NCBI RefSeq assembly: GCF_002937115.1
Contig: NZ_NHRY01000263.1
Coordinates: forward strand, 1-64,000
Direction: 5' to 3'
Source: Rhodopila globiformis
GTDB lineage: Bacteria; Pseudomonadota; Alphaproteobacteria; Acetobacterales; Acetobacteraceae
DNA: 64,000 nt
Each line of letters starts with the position of its first letter. Position 1 is the stretch's first letter. Shown one piece after another: positions 32,051 through 38,716 of this stretch. Under the pieces are notes generated by a model. It made no database searches and was not told where the DNA came from. It was given only the letters and a program-made list of their open reading frames with translations. The translations under genes were made by a program, and so were the position numbers.

Positions 32051-33937
32051 TTAGCCCTCGACTACGTGGATGAAGGTTTCGGCGGGGGTGAAGCTCGCCA
32101 GGTCCAGGATGTTCCGGTTGCCGCCCGCCGGGTCGGTTTCCATAACTGTGAAACCCAGCCTGGCATAGTGATCCTTCACCATGCCGTTCTTCTTGGTCGG
32201 GATGTACTCGCCGGCCAGCCGCCTCGCGCCCAGCCGGGCCGCTTCCTGCGCGATCAGGTTCAGCGTCGTCGGCTCCACCTGGCGGCCCAGCACGCGACAG
32301 CTCATGAGCCAGGTGTCGATCGTCAGGTCCTTGTTGTCCTGCAGCCGGCCGATGATGATGGCGATGATGCCGTTGTCGCCGAACCGGTCGGTCAGGCGCA
32401 GTTGCAGGCCGAACGCCGTGTCATCGGCCATCACCGCAAGGACGTCTGCCTCGGTGTAGCGGCGGGTGGTCAGGTTGAACTGGTTGGACTTGTTGATCAA
32501 CTGCACGATGCGCTGCAGGCCGATGGTGTCGAAGCGCTTCCAGACCAGCTGCATCTCCAGACTGCGTAGATACGACGGAAGGTCGGTCACCGCCGCCTTC
32601 AGCGCCTCGCGCGCCCTGTTGCCCTGGTACTGGCCGGTGCGCTCGCGGTCTTCCTCGGTGACGGACAGGCCCTCGAAATAGCCGCCGTCGGCCAGGGCGA
32701 GCGGATAGAAGGTGGGGTCGTCCGGCACCTCCGGCACCGCGACCATCGGCAGTTCCTGGCGCACCAGGTTGCGCTCGAACGGGTTGTCGTCGACGAAGCA
32801 CAGCGCGTCGAGGCCGATGTTCAGGTCCTGCGCGATGGCGCGGATGTTGTCGGCCTTGTTCTGCCAGTTGGCGACGAAGCTGGCGATGTCGCCGCGCTTC
32901 AGCACCATGTCGGGATGCTTGTCGAACGGCTCCAGCGCATTGGCCTCGTCGTTCTTCGAGCACACCGCCAGGATCACGCCGCGGCGGCCGAGTTCGCGCG
33001 CGTATTCCTGGAACGCGGTATAGGCCTCGCCGAGCGGGCTGCCCTGGCCGATGACGATGCCGTCCAGCCCGTCGTCGCCGACGACGCCGCCCCAGATGGT
33101 GTTGTCCAGGTCCAGCACCAGGCACTTGTAGGAGCGTCCCTGCTTCGCCGCCAACCAGCGGCCGACCAGGTCGCCGTAGAGCGGGCCGGCGGTGGGGGAG
33201 ACCTCCTGCTTCGAGCGGTGCCACAGCGCGGGGTCGTGCCACTTGCCGATGCCGTCGCGGGCGGCGCGGTCGTCCACCGCCAGGATGTCGACGCCGTCTG
33301 CCTCGGCCATGGCGCGGATCGCCTGGTTGAGGCGGGTGACGAACCAGGCGCGCGAGCCGGGCAGGCGGTGCTCGTTGTTGCCGAGCAGCGGCAGGTGTGC
33401 CGGCAGGATCGCCTGCTGGAGGACCGGGCAGCGGAAGGCGTCGCGCGCCAGGCGCCAGGCTTCGCGGATGCGGCCCTGCATGTCGGCCAGCGCGGCGTCG
33501 GCGCCTTCGAGGTCCAGGGTGGCGGTGACGCCGGCTGTCATGTGATAGGCGTCCAGCGCGAGCAGGGTCGCCGTCGGCTGGAATTCGTGCAGCGCCGAGC
33601 CGGGGTCTGATAGCTCCTGGCGGTACTGGCCGTAGTCGTTCTCGTAGGTGTCGATCCAGATGCCGCGGCGCAGGCCGGCGACGCGGATGGCCGGCAGCAG
33701 GTGGGTCAGGGTGGAGGAGCCGAGGACGGCGAGGCGGACCTTCCTGGTGGCCAGGGTCTCGGGACCGGCGGGCAGCACGCGGCGGAGGGTTTCGTCCAGG
33801 GCGTTGGTCAGGACGAAGTTCAGGCGGGCGTTGGCGAGGGCGACGGCGGTGTCCCAGGCGGTGGCCGGGTCGTTGGGGAGGGTGCGGAGGCGTTGACGCC
33901 AGTTGGGGACCTCGGGCAGCCAGTGGAGATCGGTCAC
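32051..33937 (-). CDS. FkbH-like HAD-IIIC family protein
   Basis: A 628-aa protein. Residues ~1-240 form the SGNH-like N-terminal domain of long FkbH proteins (RLAVLGSSTLTHLLPAIRVA). KCLVLDLDNTIWGGVVGDDG near residue 270 is the HAD catalytic loop with its two Asp. CSKNDEANALEPF and LCFVDDNPFERNLVR complete the HAD motifs. The C-terminal ~150 residues are a GNAT-like domain (RLTDRFGDNGIIAIII, MSCRVLGRQVE). FkbH proteins transfer the glyceryl group of 1,3-bisphosphoglycerate to an ACP; the ACP gene lies directly downstream. Which pathway consumes glyceryl-ACP is not shown, since no PKS or acyltransferase is adjacent. Confidence 0.9.
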   Translation of the reverse strand: MTDLHWLPEVPNWRQRLRTLPNDPATAWDTAVALANARLNFVLTNALDETLRRVLPAGPETLATRKVRLAVLGSSTLTHLLPAIRVAGLRRGIWIDTYENDYGQYRQELSDPGSALHEFQPTATLLALDAYHMTAGVTATLDLEGADAALADMQGRIREAWRLARDAFRCPVLQQAILPAHLPLLGNNEHRLPGSRAWFVTRLNQAIRAMAEADGVDILAVDDRAARDGIGKWHDPALWHRSKQEVSPTAGPLYGDLVGRWLAAKQGRSYKCLVLDLDNTIWGGVVGDDGLDGIVIGQGSPLGEAYTAFQEYARELGRRGVILAVCSKNDEANALEPFDKHPDMVLKRGDIASFVANWQNKADNIRAIAQDLNIGLDALCFVDDNPFERNLVRQELPMVAVPEVPDDPTFYPLALADGGYFEGLSVTEEDRERTGQYQGNRAREALKAAVTDLPSYLRSLEMQLVWKRFDTIGLQRIVQLINKSNQFNLTTRRYTEADVLAVMADDTAFGLQLRLTDRFGDNGIIAIIIGRLQDNKDLTIDTWLMSCRVLGRQVEPTTLNLIAQEAARLGARRLAGEYIPTKKNGMVKDHYARLGFTVMETDPAGGNRNILDLASFTPAETFIHVVEG

Positions 33938-34397
33938 GAATCCTCCGTTATGTCTTGCGGACCCGGGAATATGGTGCGGTGCCGCGGGCAGCTAACACCC
34001 ACATGCGGTGGGCGCAACGAAAAAGCCGTCGTCGCCACTTTGTTCCGCGGCCTGCGGGCTGACAGGATCAGCCTCGCGGTGCAGATGTCGTCAAACCTCT
34101 CACGCAGTCGAACCGGTTTGTCATGTGCCTGCCCCGGTTCATCCGCGGCTGCAGCCTGTGCCAAAGCCGATCGAATCGCGCCTTTGCCCGTGTCATCGAG
34201 ACTGGGAAGATTCGTGAGATACCGAGGCGAAAAAAAGTGGACGTGAGCGTATATTATATGTTGTGGGGTATAGAATGTTATTCTAGCGTATGCGACATGG
34301 TTGCTGTGGCGCTTCGATCCGCATGGAGGCGCGATGGATACGTGCCCCCTCCATCCCCGGGGGCGTTCCTGAACGTACACGATGCTGCCGGCGAGGA

Positions 34398-34414
34398 GTC
34401 GGAAAAATTTACAG
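34398..34414. promoter_or_regulatory. Upstream activator-like motif, distal copy
   Basis: GTCGGAAAAATTTACAG, identical at 16 of 17 positions to the copy at 34633. It is about 310 bases above the predicted PEP-CTERM transcription start. Confidence 0.6.
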
Positions 34415-34632
34415 CGCCGCCGTGCTCTCTGGTTCGTCGGCCGCGGCGCACCGAACAGCCAAATAATTGCTGATGTAGATCGATCAGGCGCACGCGGGCA
34501 TTGCGTAACTTGGAAAAAACCGGTTGCGTATAACCGGAAAAGGCATTGGCGATCGTAGCCGCATGCTTGTCGTCGTCCTTGACTTCTCCGGCTTTTGCCG
34601 CCGGGTCCATCGAATTCACGGCGTAGATTTCT

Positions 34633-34649
34633 GTCGGAAATATTTACAG
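34633..34649. promoter_or_regulatory. Upstream activator-like motif, proximal copy
   Basis: GTCGGAAATATTTACAG preceded by T; TGT..ACA ends and an AAATATTT centre make it nearly palindromic. It lies about 85 bases above the predicted sigma-54 start, the usual place for an enhancer-binding protein. I recall similar TGTAAA-N-CCGACA elements upstream of PEP-CTERM genes in other bacteria, where a PrsR-type activator acts with RpoN. Confidence 0.65.
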
Positions 34650-34699
34650 TACCGCCCTGACGTTTAATAAAACATGCGCTGAACCAATGGCTTATGAAT

Positions 34700-34714
34700 T
34701 GGCATCCCGTTTGC
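34700..34714 (+). promoter_or_regulatory. Sigma-54 (-24/-12) promoter of the PEP-CTERM gene
   Basis: TGGCATCCCGTTTGC matches the RpoN consensus TGGCAC-N5-TTGC with exact spacing (GG at -24, GC at -12). It is 33 bases before the ATG at 34748, giving a predicted start near 34726 and a short leader. It also shows that the in-frame ATG at 34694 cannot be the translation start. Confidence 0.8.
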
Positions 34715-34747
34715 ATCGGTGGCGGTGGCAATTGGGGAGTTAGTCTC

Positions 34748-35254
34748 ATGACGACGTTTCGTTCTTTTGTGCTGGTCGGCGCGATCGCGTCTGCCCTGAC
34801 GCTATCCGGGACCCAGGCGCACGCCAGCCTGCTGAACTTCAGTTGGACTGACACCAATGGCGACACCGCCTCCTGGACGATGGATTCCAATCCGACCCCA
34901 ATCAGCGTTAATACGGGCCAGAGCACCGAAGTAGCGGTGAACTCCGGAACCAGCAACTTGCTCGCGACCTTTTCCGCGGTTTACTTCTACATCGGGACTG
35001 TAGGAGGCGGCTTCTCGGACCCGAACGCGACGCTGAATACGGCTGGCGAACAGGTCTATACAAACACGGAGGCGGCGCCGGTGTTCTTGGTCGGCAGTTA
35101 CGCCGTGGGCCGCGCTGATCCCAACACGGACAACTTGATCTCCAACGGCACGCTGACCGTGACCGCGGCGCCGGAGCCTGCCAGCCTGGCTCTGTTGGCC
35201 GGGAGCCTGATCGGGCTGGGCGTGGCGCGCCGCCGCATGGCAATCCGCGACTGA
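34748..35254 (+). CDS. PEP-CTERM sorting domain-containing secreted protein
   Basis: A 168-aa exported protein. The signal peptide is MTTFRSFVLVGAIASALTL ending at AHA-S. A ~110-residue Ser/Thr/Asn-rich mature region with no Cys follows. The C-terminus is APEPASLALLAGSLIGLGVA then RRR, the PEP motif, membrane helix and basic tail recognised by exosortase, which cleaves and anchors or releases the protein at the surface in exopolysaccharide-producing bacteria. The start follows GGGGAGTTAG and lies just after the sigma-54 promoter. No exosortase gene is in the window. The mature domain is not one I recognise. Confidence 0.9.
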   Translation: MTTFRSFVLVGAIASALTLSGTQAHASLLNFSWTDTNGDTASWTMDSNPTPISVNTGQSTEVAVNSGTSNLLATFSAVYFYIGTVGGGFSDPNATLNTAGEQVYTNTEAAPVFLVGSYAVGRADPNTDNLISNGTLTVTAAPEPASLALLAGSLIGLGVARRRMAIRD

Positions 35255-35880
35255 TATCCCGCCCTGTATCGGCTGCCCGGCTCCAGCGGACGTCCATGCG
35301 GAGGCCGGGATCCGGTCCAAGGGGTACCATGACCGCAGAGTTGGCGGCCCATTTCTTCGTCGCTAATTCCATTGTGGCGCCGAACGGATCGCCACCGCTT
35401 CATGCGGTTGCGAAAATCGTTCCTGATCGGCCAGTTTCATCGGCCAGTTTCGAGGCTTGATACCGCGGTGCGGGAAACCTGGCGCGCCGGAGTTTCGCTC
35501 GTCGCTTGACAATGCGTGCAGCGATCGACAACGAGGCCGCGGGCCGCAGGGATTCCCCCCCCTGGGCCCGCGTGTTTCCATTCCAGCCAACAATACCCTG
35601 TCGTCATGCGCCGGCCTGTCGCGACCACACCCGCCGCCTGGCCATGGCCGGTGACCAGGTCTGGTGCAAGCGTCGCCAGATCCATGGCTCCCGTTGAACT
35701 TGGCGTGCAACGTTCGCGCTGTTGCTGCCGATCGTGTGCTTAATGTTAGTGTCTGCCCGACAAGTTTCCCTTATCTTCCAACTGGTTACGGACGACGCGG
35801 TGTCGCTCCTCGGCGGAAACCGCCGCTACTTTCGAAACCGTTCTGCTATCAACAGTGGGTTAACCACTTGATTCCATTGG
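35255..35880. other. Gap between convergent PEP-CTERM and Crp/Fnr genes
   Basis: 626 bases with no supported gene and no dispersed palindrome family. GCGGGCCGCAGG..CCTGGGCCCGC near 35538-35570 is an imperfect GC-rich hairpin that could end transcription. An AT-richer stretch at 35740-35900 follows. Confidence 0.4.
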
Positions 35881-36573
35881 CTACCTTCTCGGACAGACAC
35901 TTAGGCCGGCACAGGATCGCAGCACCGCGACGTCCCGAATAACCACGACGCCGCGCTGTGTTTCGACACCCAGGCGGCGCAGGGCCGCAAAGGCACGCGA
36001 CAGATTTTCCTGGGTACAGCCGATTTTTGCCGCGATATATCGTTTCTCCAGTGGCAGCACGAAGCGGGCCGGTGCCGAGTCCTCGCCGTCTGCCAGTCCA
36101 AGGAGATAGCGCGCCAGACGCTGTGTGGCTGGATGGCGCTTCAACTCGCAAATCTCGATCTGTAGCCGATGCAGGTCAAGCAGCGCATGGCTGAGAAAGC
36201 GGCGCGCGACTTCCGTATCCTGCTCGATCAATGTCCGCAGCGGCGCGGTGGGCACGATGACGAGCGTCACGGAACTGATCGTCCGGACGCCAAAGCGCGA
36301 TGGCAAACCCAATATGGCTTCCGGACAGGCGATTGCCGAAGGCGACTGAATGACGTCAATGAGGACATCGCCATGATCCCCGTTCGCTTGTGTGGCGACC
36401 GCGGCGCCAGACATCAGGAAAATCAGGTCCGACGGTGTACGGCCTTCCATGAGAATGTCATGGTCCGGCCCCAACCGGGCCAAGTCACCAAGTTCGTTGA
36501 GAACGTGCAGTTGCTCCGCGTTGAGGGCGGCGAAAACGTGCAAACCTCGCAGTGTTTCGACTCCTGGTCTCAT
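35881..36573 (-). CDS. Crp/Fnr family transcriptional regulator
   Basis: A 230-aa protein. Residues ~10-125 are the cyclic-nucleotide-binding-like beta barrel (DHDILMEGRTPSDLIFLMSGA), a long dimer helix follows, and the C-terminal winged helix contains KRYIAAKIGCTQENLSRAFAALRRLGV as helix-turn-helix. There is no N-terminal Cys cluster, so it is not an FNR-type iron-sulfur sensor. The cAMP-contacting RxS motif of Crp is not evident, so its ligand is unknown. It is divergent from the Hint-domain surface-protein gene across a 280-base AT-rich region with a palindrome, making that gene a likely target. Confidence 0.88.
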   Translation of the reverse strand: MRPGVETLRGLHVFAALNAEQLHVLNELGDLARLGPDHDILMEGRTPSDLIFLMSGAAVATQANGDHGDVLIDVIQSPSAIACPEAILGLPSRFGVRTISSVTLVIVPTAPLRTLIEQDTEVARRFLSHALLDLHRLQIEICELKRHPATQRLARYLLGLADGEDSAPARFVLPLEKRYIAAKIGCTQENLSRAFAALRRLGVETQRGVVVIRDVAVLRSCAGLSVCPRR

Positions 36574-36682: not shown

Positions 36683-36853
36683 ATCAACGACCTGACGTAG
36701 CGCAATTCTAGATACAAGAAACGACAAGTGTGATTTTGCGTATTGCATGTCAATGCAACTCGCGTCAATCGGAAATAGTTGCAAAATCGCTTTGGAAGCG
36801 CCCTCCGGCTAATCCGGTCGGACGCTTACGCAGCAGTCGTGAGGAACGAGGCC

Positions 36854-38716
36854 ATGAGTATCGACAGTTGGGTAAAAGCAGGTAGATTGGTAGGCGGCAC
36901 TTGGAGCCAGACCGGACATTGGTCGGCGAAAGGCATTCCCGGAAGCGGGGACACCGCGGACATCAGTCGTGCCGCAAAAAGCGCCTATACCGTCATTGTC
37001 GATGGCTCGTATACGATTGCCGATCTGACAATCGGCTCCAGCTATGCAACGCTTGCCTTTAATGCAGGCACAAGTCTCACAGTCAGCGGCACAACCACCC
37101 TTTCTGCCGGCACGATCGCGCTTGGCAGCAGCGGGGCGACGCTTTCAACCGGCATCCTGGATACTTCCAACGGCACGGCCATCACGATCGGCACTGGCGC
37201 CACACTGCTCGCTGGCAGCGGCACAATCAGCGGGGCAGTCTCCGGTCCCGGCACCATCGAGGCCAATGGCGGGACGCTGGATTTCAGCGCCGGGATTGGT
37301 GCGAATACTGGGCTGAACTACGAGATCTCCAATGCGAGTTTGTCTGTCCTTCAGATCGACTCGACTGTCGGCAACAACAACACGTTCAGCTTCGCCGGCG
37401 CGGCCGGTGTGCTTGACTTCACCGCCACCAGCACCAACCTGAACCAGACCGTGTCGGGCCTGAATGTCGGCGCCAGCGACACAGCGCCTACCAACTTCAT
37501 CCAGGTTGCGGGCATCGTCACCGTCAGCGATGCCACCAACCTCTATTCCTATTCCGGCGCACCGGTAACAGTCGACTTCGGCAGCGCTGGCAGCCTGACC
37601 CTGACCAATGTCAGCGGCAGCAGCGGGTCGTTTTACGTCGATACCGTCATCACAGGCGGCAACACCGACATCTTCCTCGCCTCGACCGTCTGCTTCGCCG
37701 CCGGCACCCGCATCCTGACCGCATCCGGTGAGCAGGCGGTCGAGACCCTGCGTCCGGGCGACATCGTCCTCACGCTCACCGGCGACACGCTCACCCCCGA
37801 ACCGGTCAAGTGGATCGGCTACCGCCGGATCGACCTGACGGCGCATCCGCGGCCCGAAATGGCGGCTCCCATCCGCATCCAACGCCACGCCTTCGCCGAC
37901 AACCGGCCGCACACCGACCTGGTCGTCTCCCCCGACCACGCCCTGTTCGTGGACGGCAAGCTGATCGCCGCCCGCCAACTGGTCAACGGCAGCACGATCC
38001 GCCGGGAAACCGCCTGCAAGTCCGTCGAATATTTCCACGTCGAGCTCGACCACCACGCCATCCTGCTGTCCGAGGGCCTGCCGACGGAAAGCTACCTCGA
38101 CACCGGCAACCGCGGCTTCTTCGCCAACGGCGGCGACCCGCTGGTCCTGCACCCGGACCTGATGGACGAATCCGATTGCCCGACCCGCGAGGCGGCCTCG
38201 TGCGCGCCGTTCGCCTGGGACGAGCCCACGGTGCGGCCGGTCTGGCAGCGCCTGGCCGATCGCGCGGCGACTTTGGGCCAGCCGGCGGTCAGCCCGGAAA
38301 CCACCCGCGACACCGACCTGCACCTGCTGATCAAGGGCCGGGCCCTGCGGCCGCTGTACGCCGAGAACGGGCTGTTCATCTTCGCGCTGCCGCGCGGCAC
38401 GGCCGAGGCGCGGCTGGTGTCCCGCGCCGGCGCTCCGGCGGATGCGCGCCCCTGGCTGGACGACCGCCGCGTGCTCGGCGTCCAGGTGCAGCAGATCACC
38501 CTCCGCGATGCGACCGACGTCACCACGATCGCCCTCGACGACCCGGCCCTGTCGCAGGGTTGGTGGGACGTGGAGCGGAACGGCATGACGATGCGGCGCT
38601 GGACGGACGGAAACGCCGTTCTGCCGCTGCCTCACCTGCCGGGCGTGTCGATGCTGGAAATCCGGGCCGGCGGCCTGGACTACCTGATCGGCAACGACCG
38701 CAGCGCCGCCGCATAG
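36854..38716 (+). CDS. Hint-domain surface/adhesin-like protein
   Basis: A 620-aa protein. Residues ~1-275 are low-complexity, Gly/Ser/Thr/Ala-rich beta repeats (TLSAGTIALGSSGATLSTG, TGATLLAGSGTISGAVSGPG), an autotransporter-like passenger, with no classical signal peptide. From C280 comes a Hint_2 domain: VCFAAGTRILTASGEQAVE, LRPGDIVLTL and VSPDHALFVDGKLIAARQL carry the Cys1 and TxxH-like features of self-splicing/cleaving folds. A ~200-residue C-terminal domain follows. Such proteins are abundant in Acetobacteraceae and may self-process at the Hint Cys. The ATG at 36854 follows GAGGAACGAGG; 25 upstream codons are excluded. Confidence 0.85.
   Translation: MSIDSWVKAGRLVGGTWSQTGHWSAKGIPGSGDTADISRAAKSAYTVIVDGSYTIADLTIGSSYATLAFNAGTSLTVSGTTTLSAGTIALGSSGATLSTGILDTSNGTAITIGTGATLLAGSGTISGAVSGPGTIEANGGTLDFSAGIGANTGLNYEISNASLSVLQIDSTVGNNNTFSFAGAAGVLDFTATSTNLNQTVSGLNVGASDTAPTNFIQVAGIVTVSDATNLYSYSGAPVTVDFGSAGSLTLTNVSGSSGSFYVDTVITGGNTDIFLASTVCFAAGTRILTASGEQAVETLRPGDIVLTLTGDTLTPEPVKWIGYRRIDLTAHPRPEMAAPIRIQRHAFADNRPHTDLVVSPDHALFVDGKLIAARQLVNGSTIRRETACKSVEYFHVELDHHAILLSEGLPTESYLDTGNRGFFANGGDPLVLHPDLMDESDCPTREAASCAPFAWDEPTVRPVWQRLADRAATLGQPAVSPETTRDTDLHLLIKGRALRPLYAENGLFIFALPRGTAEARLVSRAGAPADARPWLDDRRVLGVQVQQITLRDATDVTTIALDDPALSQGWWDVERNGMTMRRWTDGNAVLPLPHLPGVSMLEIRAGGLDYLIGNDRSAAA

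Follow-up and report, generated by a model that had tools for sequence, protein, structure and literature searches.

The window, a 64,000-nucleotide stretch of the Rhodopila globiformis genome, carries on its plus strand a gene for a 168-aa protein (34748-35254) preceded by a set of short elements. As the original prediction proposed, the product is a PEP-CTERM protein: it passes both PF07589 (21.7 bits; cut-off 20.7) and TIGR02595 (18.6 bits; cut-off 16), its sorting domain (22.0 bits) is encoded at 35168-35236, its C-terminal end is APEPASLALLAGSLIGLGVARRRMAIRD, and by eye it has an N-terminal signal-like segment. A possible ribosome binding site, GGGGAG (34734-34739), was also recognized by eye. 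Upstream on the same strand are a sigma-54 promoter (TGGCATCCCGTTTGCA, 34700-34715), whose -24/-12 element TGGCAT-N5-TTGCA has no mismatches to TGGCAYN5TTGCW, an IHF-like site (AACCAATGGCTTA, 34682-34694; one mismatch to WATCAANNNNTTR), and two PrsR-box-like 17-mers: a proximal box, GTCGGAAATATTTACAG, at 34633-34649 (27.2 bits on the box matrix, whose training set includes it) and a distal box, GTCGGAAAAATTTACAG, at 34398-34414 (26.0 bits, outside the training set). Both 17-mers and the exact -24/-12 element lie where they had been reported, and the claimed 33 nt between TTGC and the ATG at 34748 agrees with our measurement of 32-33 nt. One distance needed correction: the nearer 17-mer ends 98 nt above the start codon, not about 85. 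The proximal box stands about 50-51 nt from TGGC, which places it in the short spacing class (50-53) described below.

The boxes are exceptional in their surroundings. Allowing up to three mismatches, the 17-mer occurs at two sites in the 64-kb window, both upstream of the PEP-CTERM gene; shuffled versions of the window contained 0.01 matches on average, and none of 100 shuffles contained two. At up to two mismatches there are six sites in the 7.25 Mb genome (278 contigs) and none for the reversed control. A looser form, TGTCGGAAANNTTTACA, gave 48 sites at up to three mismatches against 28 for the control, so that most such sites are due to chance and only those with few mismatches (11 of the 48 have two or fewer) are informative.

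The protein's match to the PepA family is weak (31.2 bits; cut-off 80), and although it was matched in 13 other genomes among the 40 searched (best E 1.7e-6, 37% over residues 66-165), its likeness to the regulon proteins of relatives is C-terminal only, or weak. Because no ortholog of the protein body was present among the 77 downstream ORFs described below, the window promoter is not open to orthologous footprinting; by eye its spacer bears a weak resemblance to that of one relative (L177).

Other features of the region were also recorded. A terminator-like hairpin pattern on the minus strand (34411-34423) takes its T-run from the distal box; three such patterns were found in the region scanned against 2.3 expected. 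A gene remnant between the boxes was considered and rejected: a hand-read minus-strand peptide of 75 aa had no match among plasmids, and a 340-aa minus-strand ORF over the box region had no NCBIfam match and a single Pfam match at E 0.065. A Hint domain (PF13403, 149.7 bits) is encoded in a 645-aa ORF (36779-38716) downstream of the PEP-CTERM gene.

A known element and its predicted regulators

Haft et al. (2006; PMC1569441) described a 17-nt motif 1 with TTTACA at its 3' end, sometimes repeated and followed by a sigma-54 motif 2, upstream of 99 of 167 proteobacterial PEP-CTERM genes, with PrsR as the predicted activator. The spacer between the motifs averages 62.8 nt (SD 10.6, range 32-92 nt) and motif 2 lies 23-221 nt from the start codon (PMC1569441). 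The original prediction tied this circuit to floc-forming bacteria: the circuit is indeed known, but it is not confined to floc formers, since the 2006 element spans Proteobacteria, including the alphaproteobacterium Rhodospirillum rubrum, which is cited for its repeated motif 1 (PMC1569441). The window shares with that description the 17-nt motif and its repeat, a spacer within range, the -24/-12 element, a PEP-CTERM gene with a long intergenic region, and the presence of PrsR, PrsK and PrsT in the genome, and it agrees with every sequence criterion given (motif 1, a spacer of 32-92 nt, 23-221 nt to the start). Judged by its sequence, the window element is this known regulatory element, correctly read, in a new genome.

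The pepA gene of the betaproteobacterium Aquincola tertiaricarbonis resembles the window gene in being a PEP-CTERM gene with a -24/-12 promoter and a predicted upstream enhancer. Its -24/-12 start was mapped by primer extension and its expression depends on RpoN, but control by PrsR is not among the results given in the accessible text (PMC9850573); in the RN12M47 mutant, which has a transposon in epsB2, plasmid-borne prsK-prsR failed to restore flocs (PMC9850573). In Zoogloea a PEP-CTERM gene is reported to be controlled by RpoN and PrsK-PrsR (PMC9012009, citing Gao 2018), and DVUA0057, a Desulfovibrio regulator predicted to have this role, enriched five predicted PEP-CTERM targets by DAP-chip (PMC3333781). 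A literature search for Rhodopila returned no paper on the PEP-CTERM/PrsR model in this lineage.

The proposal of an RpoN plus PrsR-type circuit gains support from the genome, where PrsR, PrsK, PrsT, RpoN and the exosortase are all predicted by matches over curated cut-offs. PrsR (C40:4336-5658) scores 635 bits (cut-off 502.6) and is the sole protein over its cut-off; its contig also carries PrsK (550 bits; cut-off 300), PrsT (528 bits; cut-off 312), polysaccharide genes of the XrtA system and the genome's one exosortase. RpoN is present in one copy. The closest named relatives of PrsR are from Rhodopila, Acidisphaera and other Acetobacteraceae, in keeping with the alphaproteobacterial setting originally suggested. 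Ten PEP-CTERM domains exceed the cut-off, a few of which may be false, given that the short model also passes in two of 14 named control genomes.

The PrsR profile also has seven further strong matches below the cut-off (277-357 bits), which are probably other NtrC-type activators, and one of these could bind the boxes of an otherwise genuine sigma-54 promoter in place of PrsR. That the binding of PrsR to these boxes is itself a prediction leaves room for such a reading, as do four of 36 motif-bearing genomes with no PrsR over the cut-off (in one of them, G016, the match is cut at profile position 270). We nevertheless consider another activator unlikely: a single protein exceeds the PrsR cut-off, it is encoded on the contig of the exosortase locus, and box and PrsR tend to co-occur, as they did in 2006. 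Among 65 chosen genomes, PrsR was over the cut-off in 32 of the 36 with the motif versus 12 of 29 without a pattern match, a contrast that is support rather than proof because some of the comparison genomes were chosen by hand, the motif was sought with two patterns and one genus is over-represented.

Box-promoter pairs in related genomes

Genomes were scanned with the combined pattern TTTACA-N45..75-TGGCAY-N5-TTGC, and the longest ORF starting no more than 300 nt downstream was read. ORFs were scored by a lenient rule (the tripeptide PEP among the final 40 residues). Matches were present in 25 of the 40 genomes searched, the window's own included, and numbered 77 (74 in relatives, three in the own genome) versus two for the reversed control; the own genome gave none in the control. 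Eight ORFs are incomplete, continuing past the end of the stretch or contig (L015, L140, L150, L161, L163, L195, L202, L206). Of the 69 complete ORFs, 59 have a PEP-CTERM tail (58 by the rule, with L169 counted from another frame), nearly all of them from one genus. The genome scan thus bears out the claim that the motif pair can be used to find the regulon.

The ten complete ORFs lacking a PEP tail are varied. Three (L145, L164, L209) have a box without its left half, as does the truncated L163; L208 has a similar tail without PEP. Two encode LpxR-family outer-membrane proteins behind the box and sigma-54 arrangement (L141:759-1751, L158:753-2039). The remaining four are small proteins: L154 and L179 have no Pfam match, and in L181 and L191 the next ORF is EutB by Pfam (L181) or EutB-like by eye (L191). 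Small membrane-like proteins of about 80 aa, similar to each other, stand behind the element in L181, in L191 and, in the own genome, in C219 near 25000 (L023:4218-4469).

Within the own genome, a perfect -24/-12 element and a box precede three PEP-CTERM genes: the window gene (C263:34748), a gene on C272 with two upstream boxes of three and four mismatches, and a gene near 73100 of C263, whose box, 63 nt from TGGC, has the opposite orientation. The arrangement is therefore found at only three of the ten PEP-CTERM domains over the cut-off; the other seven have no upstream box at up to four mismatches, in a scan that left the GTAAR box variant outside. This variant, the nearly palindromic GTAAR-N6-TTTACA, replaces GTCGG-N5-TTTACA in L136, L146, L159, L172, L190, L200, L204, L208 and in C206 of the own genome. 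C206 has, at its edge, one more perfect -24/-12 element, paired with a variant box, and on C219 and C59 elements with one or two mismatches lie upstream of small non-PEP proteins. One box with a single mismatch (C263:105621-105637) lies beside a long ORF and is without a good -24/-12 site.

Short motifs can arise by chance, and four of the 77 pattern matches look like chance; the element in the window might likewise be fortuitous, and its gene read from a sigma-70 promoter. We give this next to no weight, because such sites exceed chance expectation and are linked to PEP-CTERM genes, and because a simple sigma-70 scan of 33900-35900 returned one site, on the minus strand and far upstream.

Outside the genus the plain PEP rule performs less well. 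A strict search of 398 genomes of the phylum (own included), with spacings of 42-72 nt, found matches in 13, and 16 of the matches are not from the own genome. One of the 16 ORFs is cut. A literal PEP tail closes three of the other 15, seven more end, as judged by eye, in something similar, and the last five matches stand before ORFs of another kind, including three small membrane-like proteins.

Spacing and the IHF-like site

Four matches whose box has no left half (L145, L163, L164 and L209, with spacings of 58, 51, 57 and 71) were excluded from the spacing, matrix and IHF counts. The 73 remaining spacings fall at 50-53 (14), 61-64 (58) and 74 (1), classes that were sharpened by the removal of these four. 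A search at 16-46 nt, with the left half of the box unfiltered, added spacings of 40, 42 and 43 within the genus and, beyond it, of 20, 41 and 43; the control matched once. The 16 non-own phylum matches have spacings of 43-44 (4), 52-54 (3) and 61-66 (9), the first class possibly being clipped by the lower limit of 42 in the pattern. A Rayleigh statistic at 10.5 bp, which ignores kinship, gave R 0.71, reached by two of 20,000 uniform draws, and the best period between 8 and 14 was 10.0. Spacings cluster near 43, 52 and 62-63 bp, in steps of roughly one helical turn, which suggests that boxes and promoters fit one face of the helix. L243, L244 and L245, which come from a different alphaproteobacterial family, have the 43-44 bp spacing in front of a small membrane-like protein rather than a PEP-CTERM gene.

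At IHF-assisted sigma-54 promoters such as nifH and Pu, the IHF site lies between the enhancer and the -24/-12 element. In the window an IHF-like site, inverted and with one mismatch, has the corresponding place; the predicted activator differs in being of the PrsR type, and the IHF site is putative. Among the 58 long-class promoters, YAANNNNTTGAWW occurs with at most one mismatch anywhere in the spacer of 42 (shuffles: mean 6.7, maximum 14). In 36 of the 58 it lies at -31 from TGGC (mean 0.17, maximum 3 in 300 shuffles), a position that is post hoc, since the element was first noticed in the column profile of the long class and then tested on the same promoters; this test also omitted L185 (spacing 74). 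The nine long-class phylum matches provide an independent check: the IHF-like site is at -33 to -31 in eight, and in two of these the position is exactly -31. For the combined long class the site is at -33 to -30 in 47 of 67 promoters (mean 0.74, maximum 5), and an inverted form is at -20 to -17 in nine (mean 0.72, maximum 5).

The short class, to which the window belongs, is more mixed. The forward site is present in six of 17 promoters, all of one protein family, and the inverted site lies at -20 to -17 in four, the window included (shuffles: mean 0.15, maximum 2; positions chosen post hoc). Thus ten of the 17 have an IHF-like site in either orientation and seven have neither. The window site is inverted relative to the forward sites of the long class; a forward site at -31 was looked for and is absent, the best candidate having three mismatches at another position. 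Together these counts suggest that the IHF-like site holds a preferred place between box and promoter, and that it is a probable DNA-bending site. Our literature search, from which subscription papers were mostly absent, found no paper joining PEP-CTERM and IHF; of three in which PEP-CTERM and integration host factor both occur, none concerns these promoters by title.

Additional boxes and a model for activation

A further box of at least 20 bits lies within 600 nt upstream of 13 of the 73 promoters, the window included. At 13 in 42.9 kb, this is close to the rate 300-1500 nt downstream (20 boxes in 80.2 kb), which points to clustering on either side of these genes rather than specifically upstream; other stretches of the own genome, chosen for PEP-CTERM genes or box matches, hold two in 144 kb. 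The closeness of the two rates bears on the distal box of the window, which may be a relic or serve other DNA, leaving the proximal box as the one that works. The distal box lies between the window gene and a divergent FkbH-like gene, and no minus-strand TGGCAY-N5-TTGCW site with fewer than three mismatches is present in 33700-34799. Its score is nevertheless near that of the proximal box, which suggests maintained selection, and Haft et al. noted repetition of the motif. We take the single-box reading seriously, at somewhat less than even odds.

Boxes also follow genes. Ten of the 59 PEP-CTERM ORFs have a forward box of at least 22 bits within 100 nt after the stop codon, versus none in the reverse orientation (mononucleotide shuffles: mean 0.01, maximum 1 in 100), counts to be read with the matrix having been built from upstream boxes of the same set and same-family genes not being independent. 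The boxes belong to L017 (at C272:120838-120854 in the own genome, 7 nt after the stop), L151, L152, L170, L177, L178, L186, L192, L194 and L196, and six of the ten start 6-14 nt beyond the stop codon. Hairpins with a T-rich tail come next in seven of the ten, one hairpin being weak, as scored in boxed genes only and where terminators are expected anyway. Of 22 downstream boxes of at least 17 bits, none has a -24/-12 element 35-80 nt further on at fewer than three mismatches. The window gene has no 3' box of at least 15 bits within 960 nt, and at 15 bits none accompanies the 16 non-own phylum matches: the feature may therefore be limited to the genus.

The region upstream of the window's PEP-CTERM gene is, we conclude, very probably its enhancer and promoter, under the control of PrsR and RpoN and possibly with IHF-type bending. 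According to this model, phosphorylated PrsR, an NtrC-type activator with PrsK as its kinase, would bind the 17-bp boxes; IHF or a similar protein would bend the 51-bp spacer; and PrsR, held on one helix face, would contact RpoN-RNA polymerase at 34700 and drive melting, with transcription starting near 34726. The distal box may contribute cooperative binding or act as a second enhancer. The exosortase would then sort the protein in step with exopolysaccharide output. More speculatively, and on balance doubtfully, PEP-CTERM genes of this Acetobacteraceae genus may share a three-part, turn-locked control region, with some genes bracketed by a PrsR box between stop and terminator, in which case PrsR might loop both gene ends together, or box, C-terminal sorting domain and terminator might move as an exchangeable 3' cassette; the window gene would have the 5' part only, with a second box upstream instead.

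As far as the accessible text of the cited papers extends, the helical-turn spacing, the IHF-like site and the 3' boxes go beyond them; that of Haft et al. makes no mention of discrete helical classes, an IHF-like site or 3' boxes (PMC1569441). The element supports the 2006 model in a further lineage, and turn-locked spacing combined with an IHF-like site makes the mechanism of activation open to direct testing. Should the 3' boxes prove functional, their position would be unusual for a sigma-54 activator. In this genus the scan finds PEP-CTERM promoters with good precision, and the regulon points to candidate members that are not PEP-CTERM proteins: LpxR outer-membrane proteins and small membrane-like proteins.
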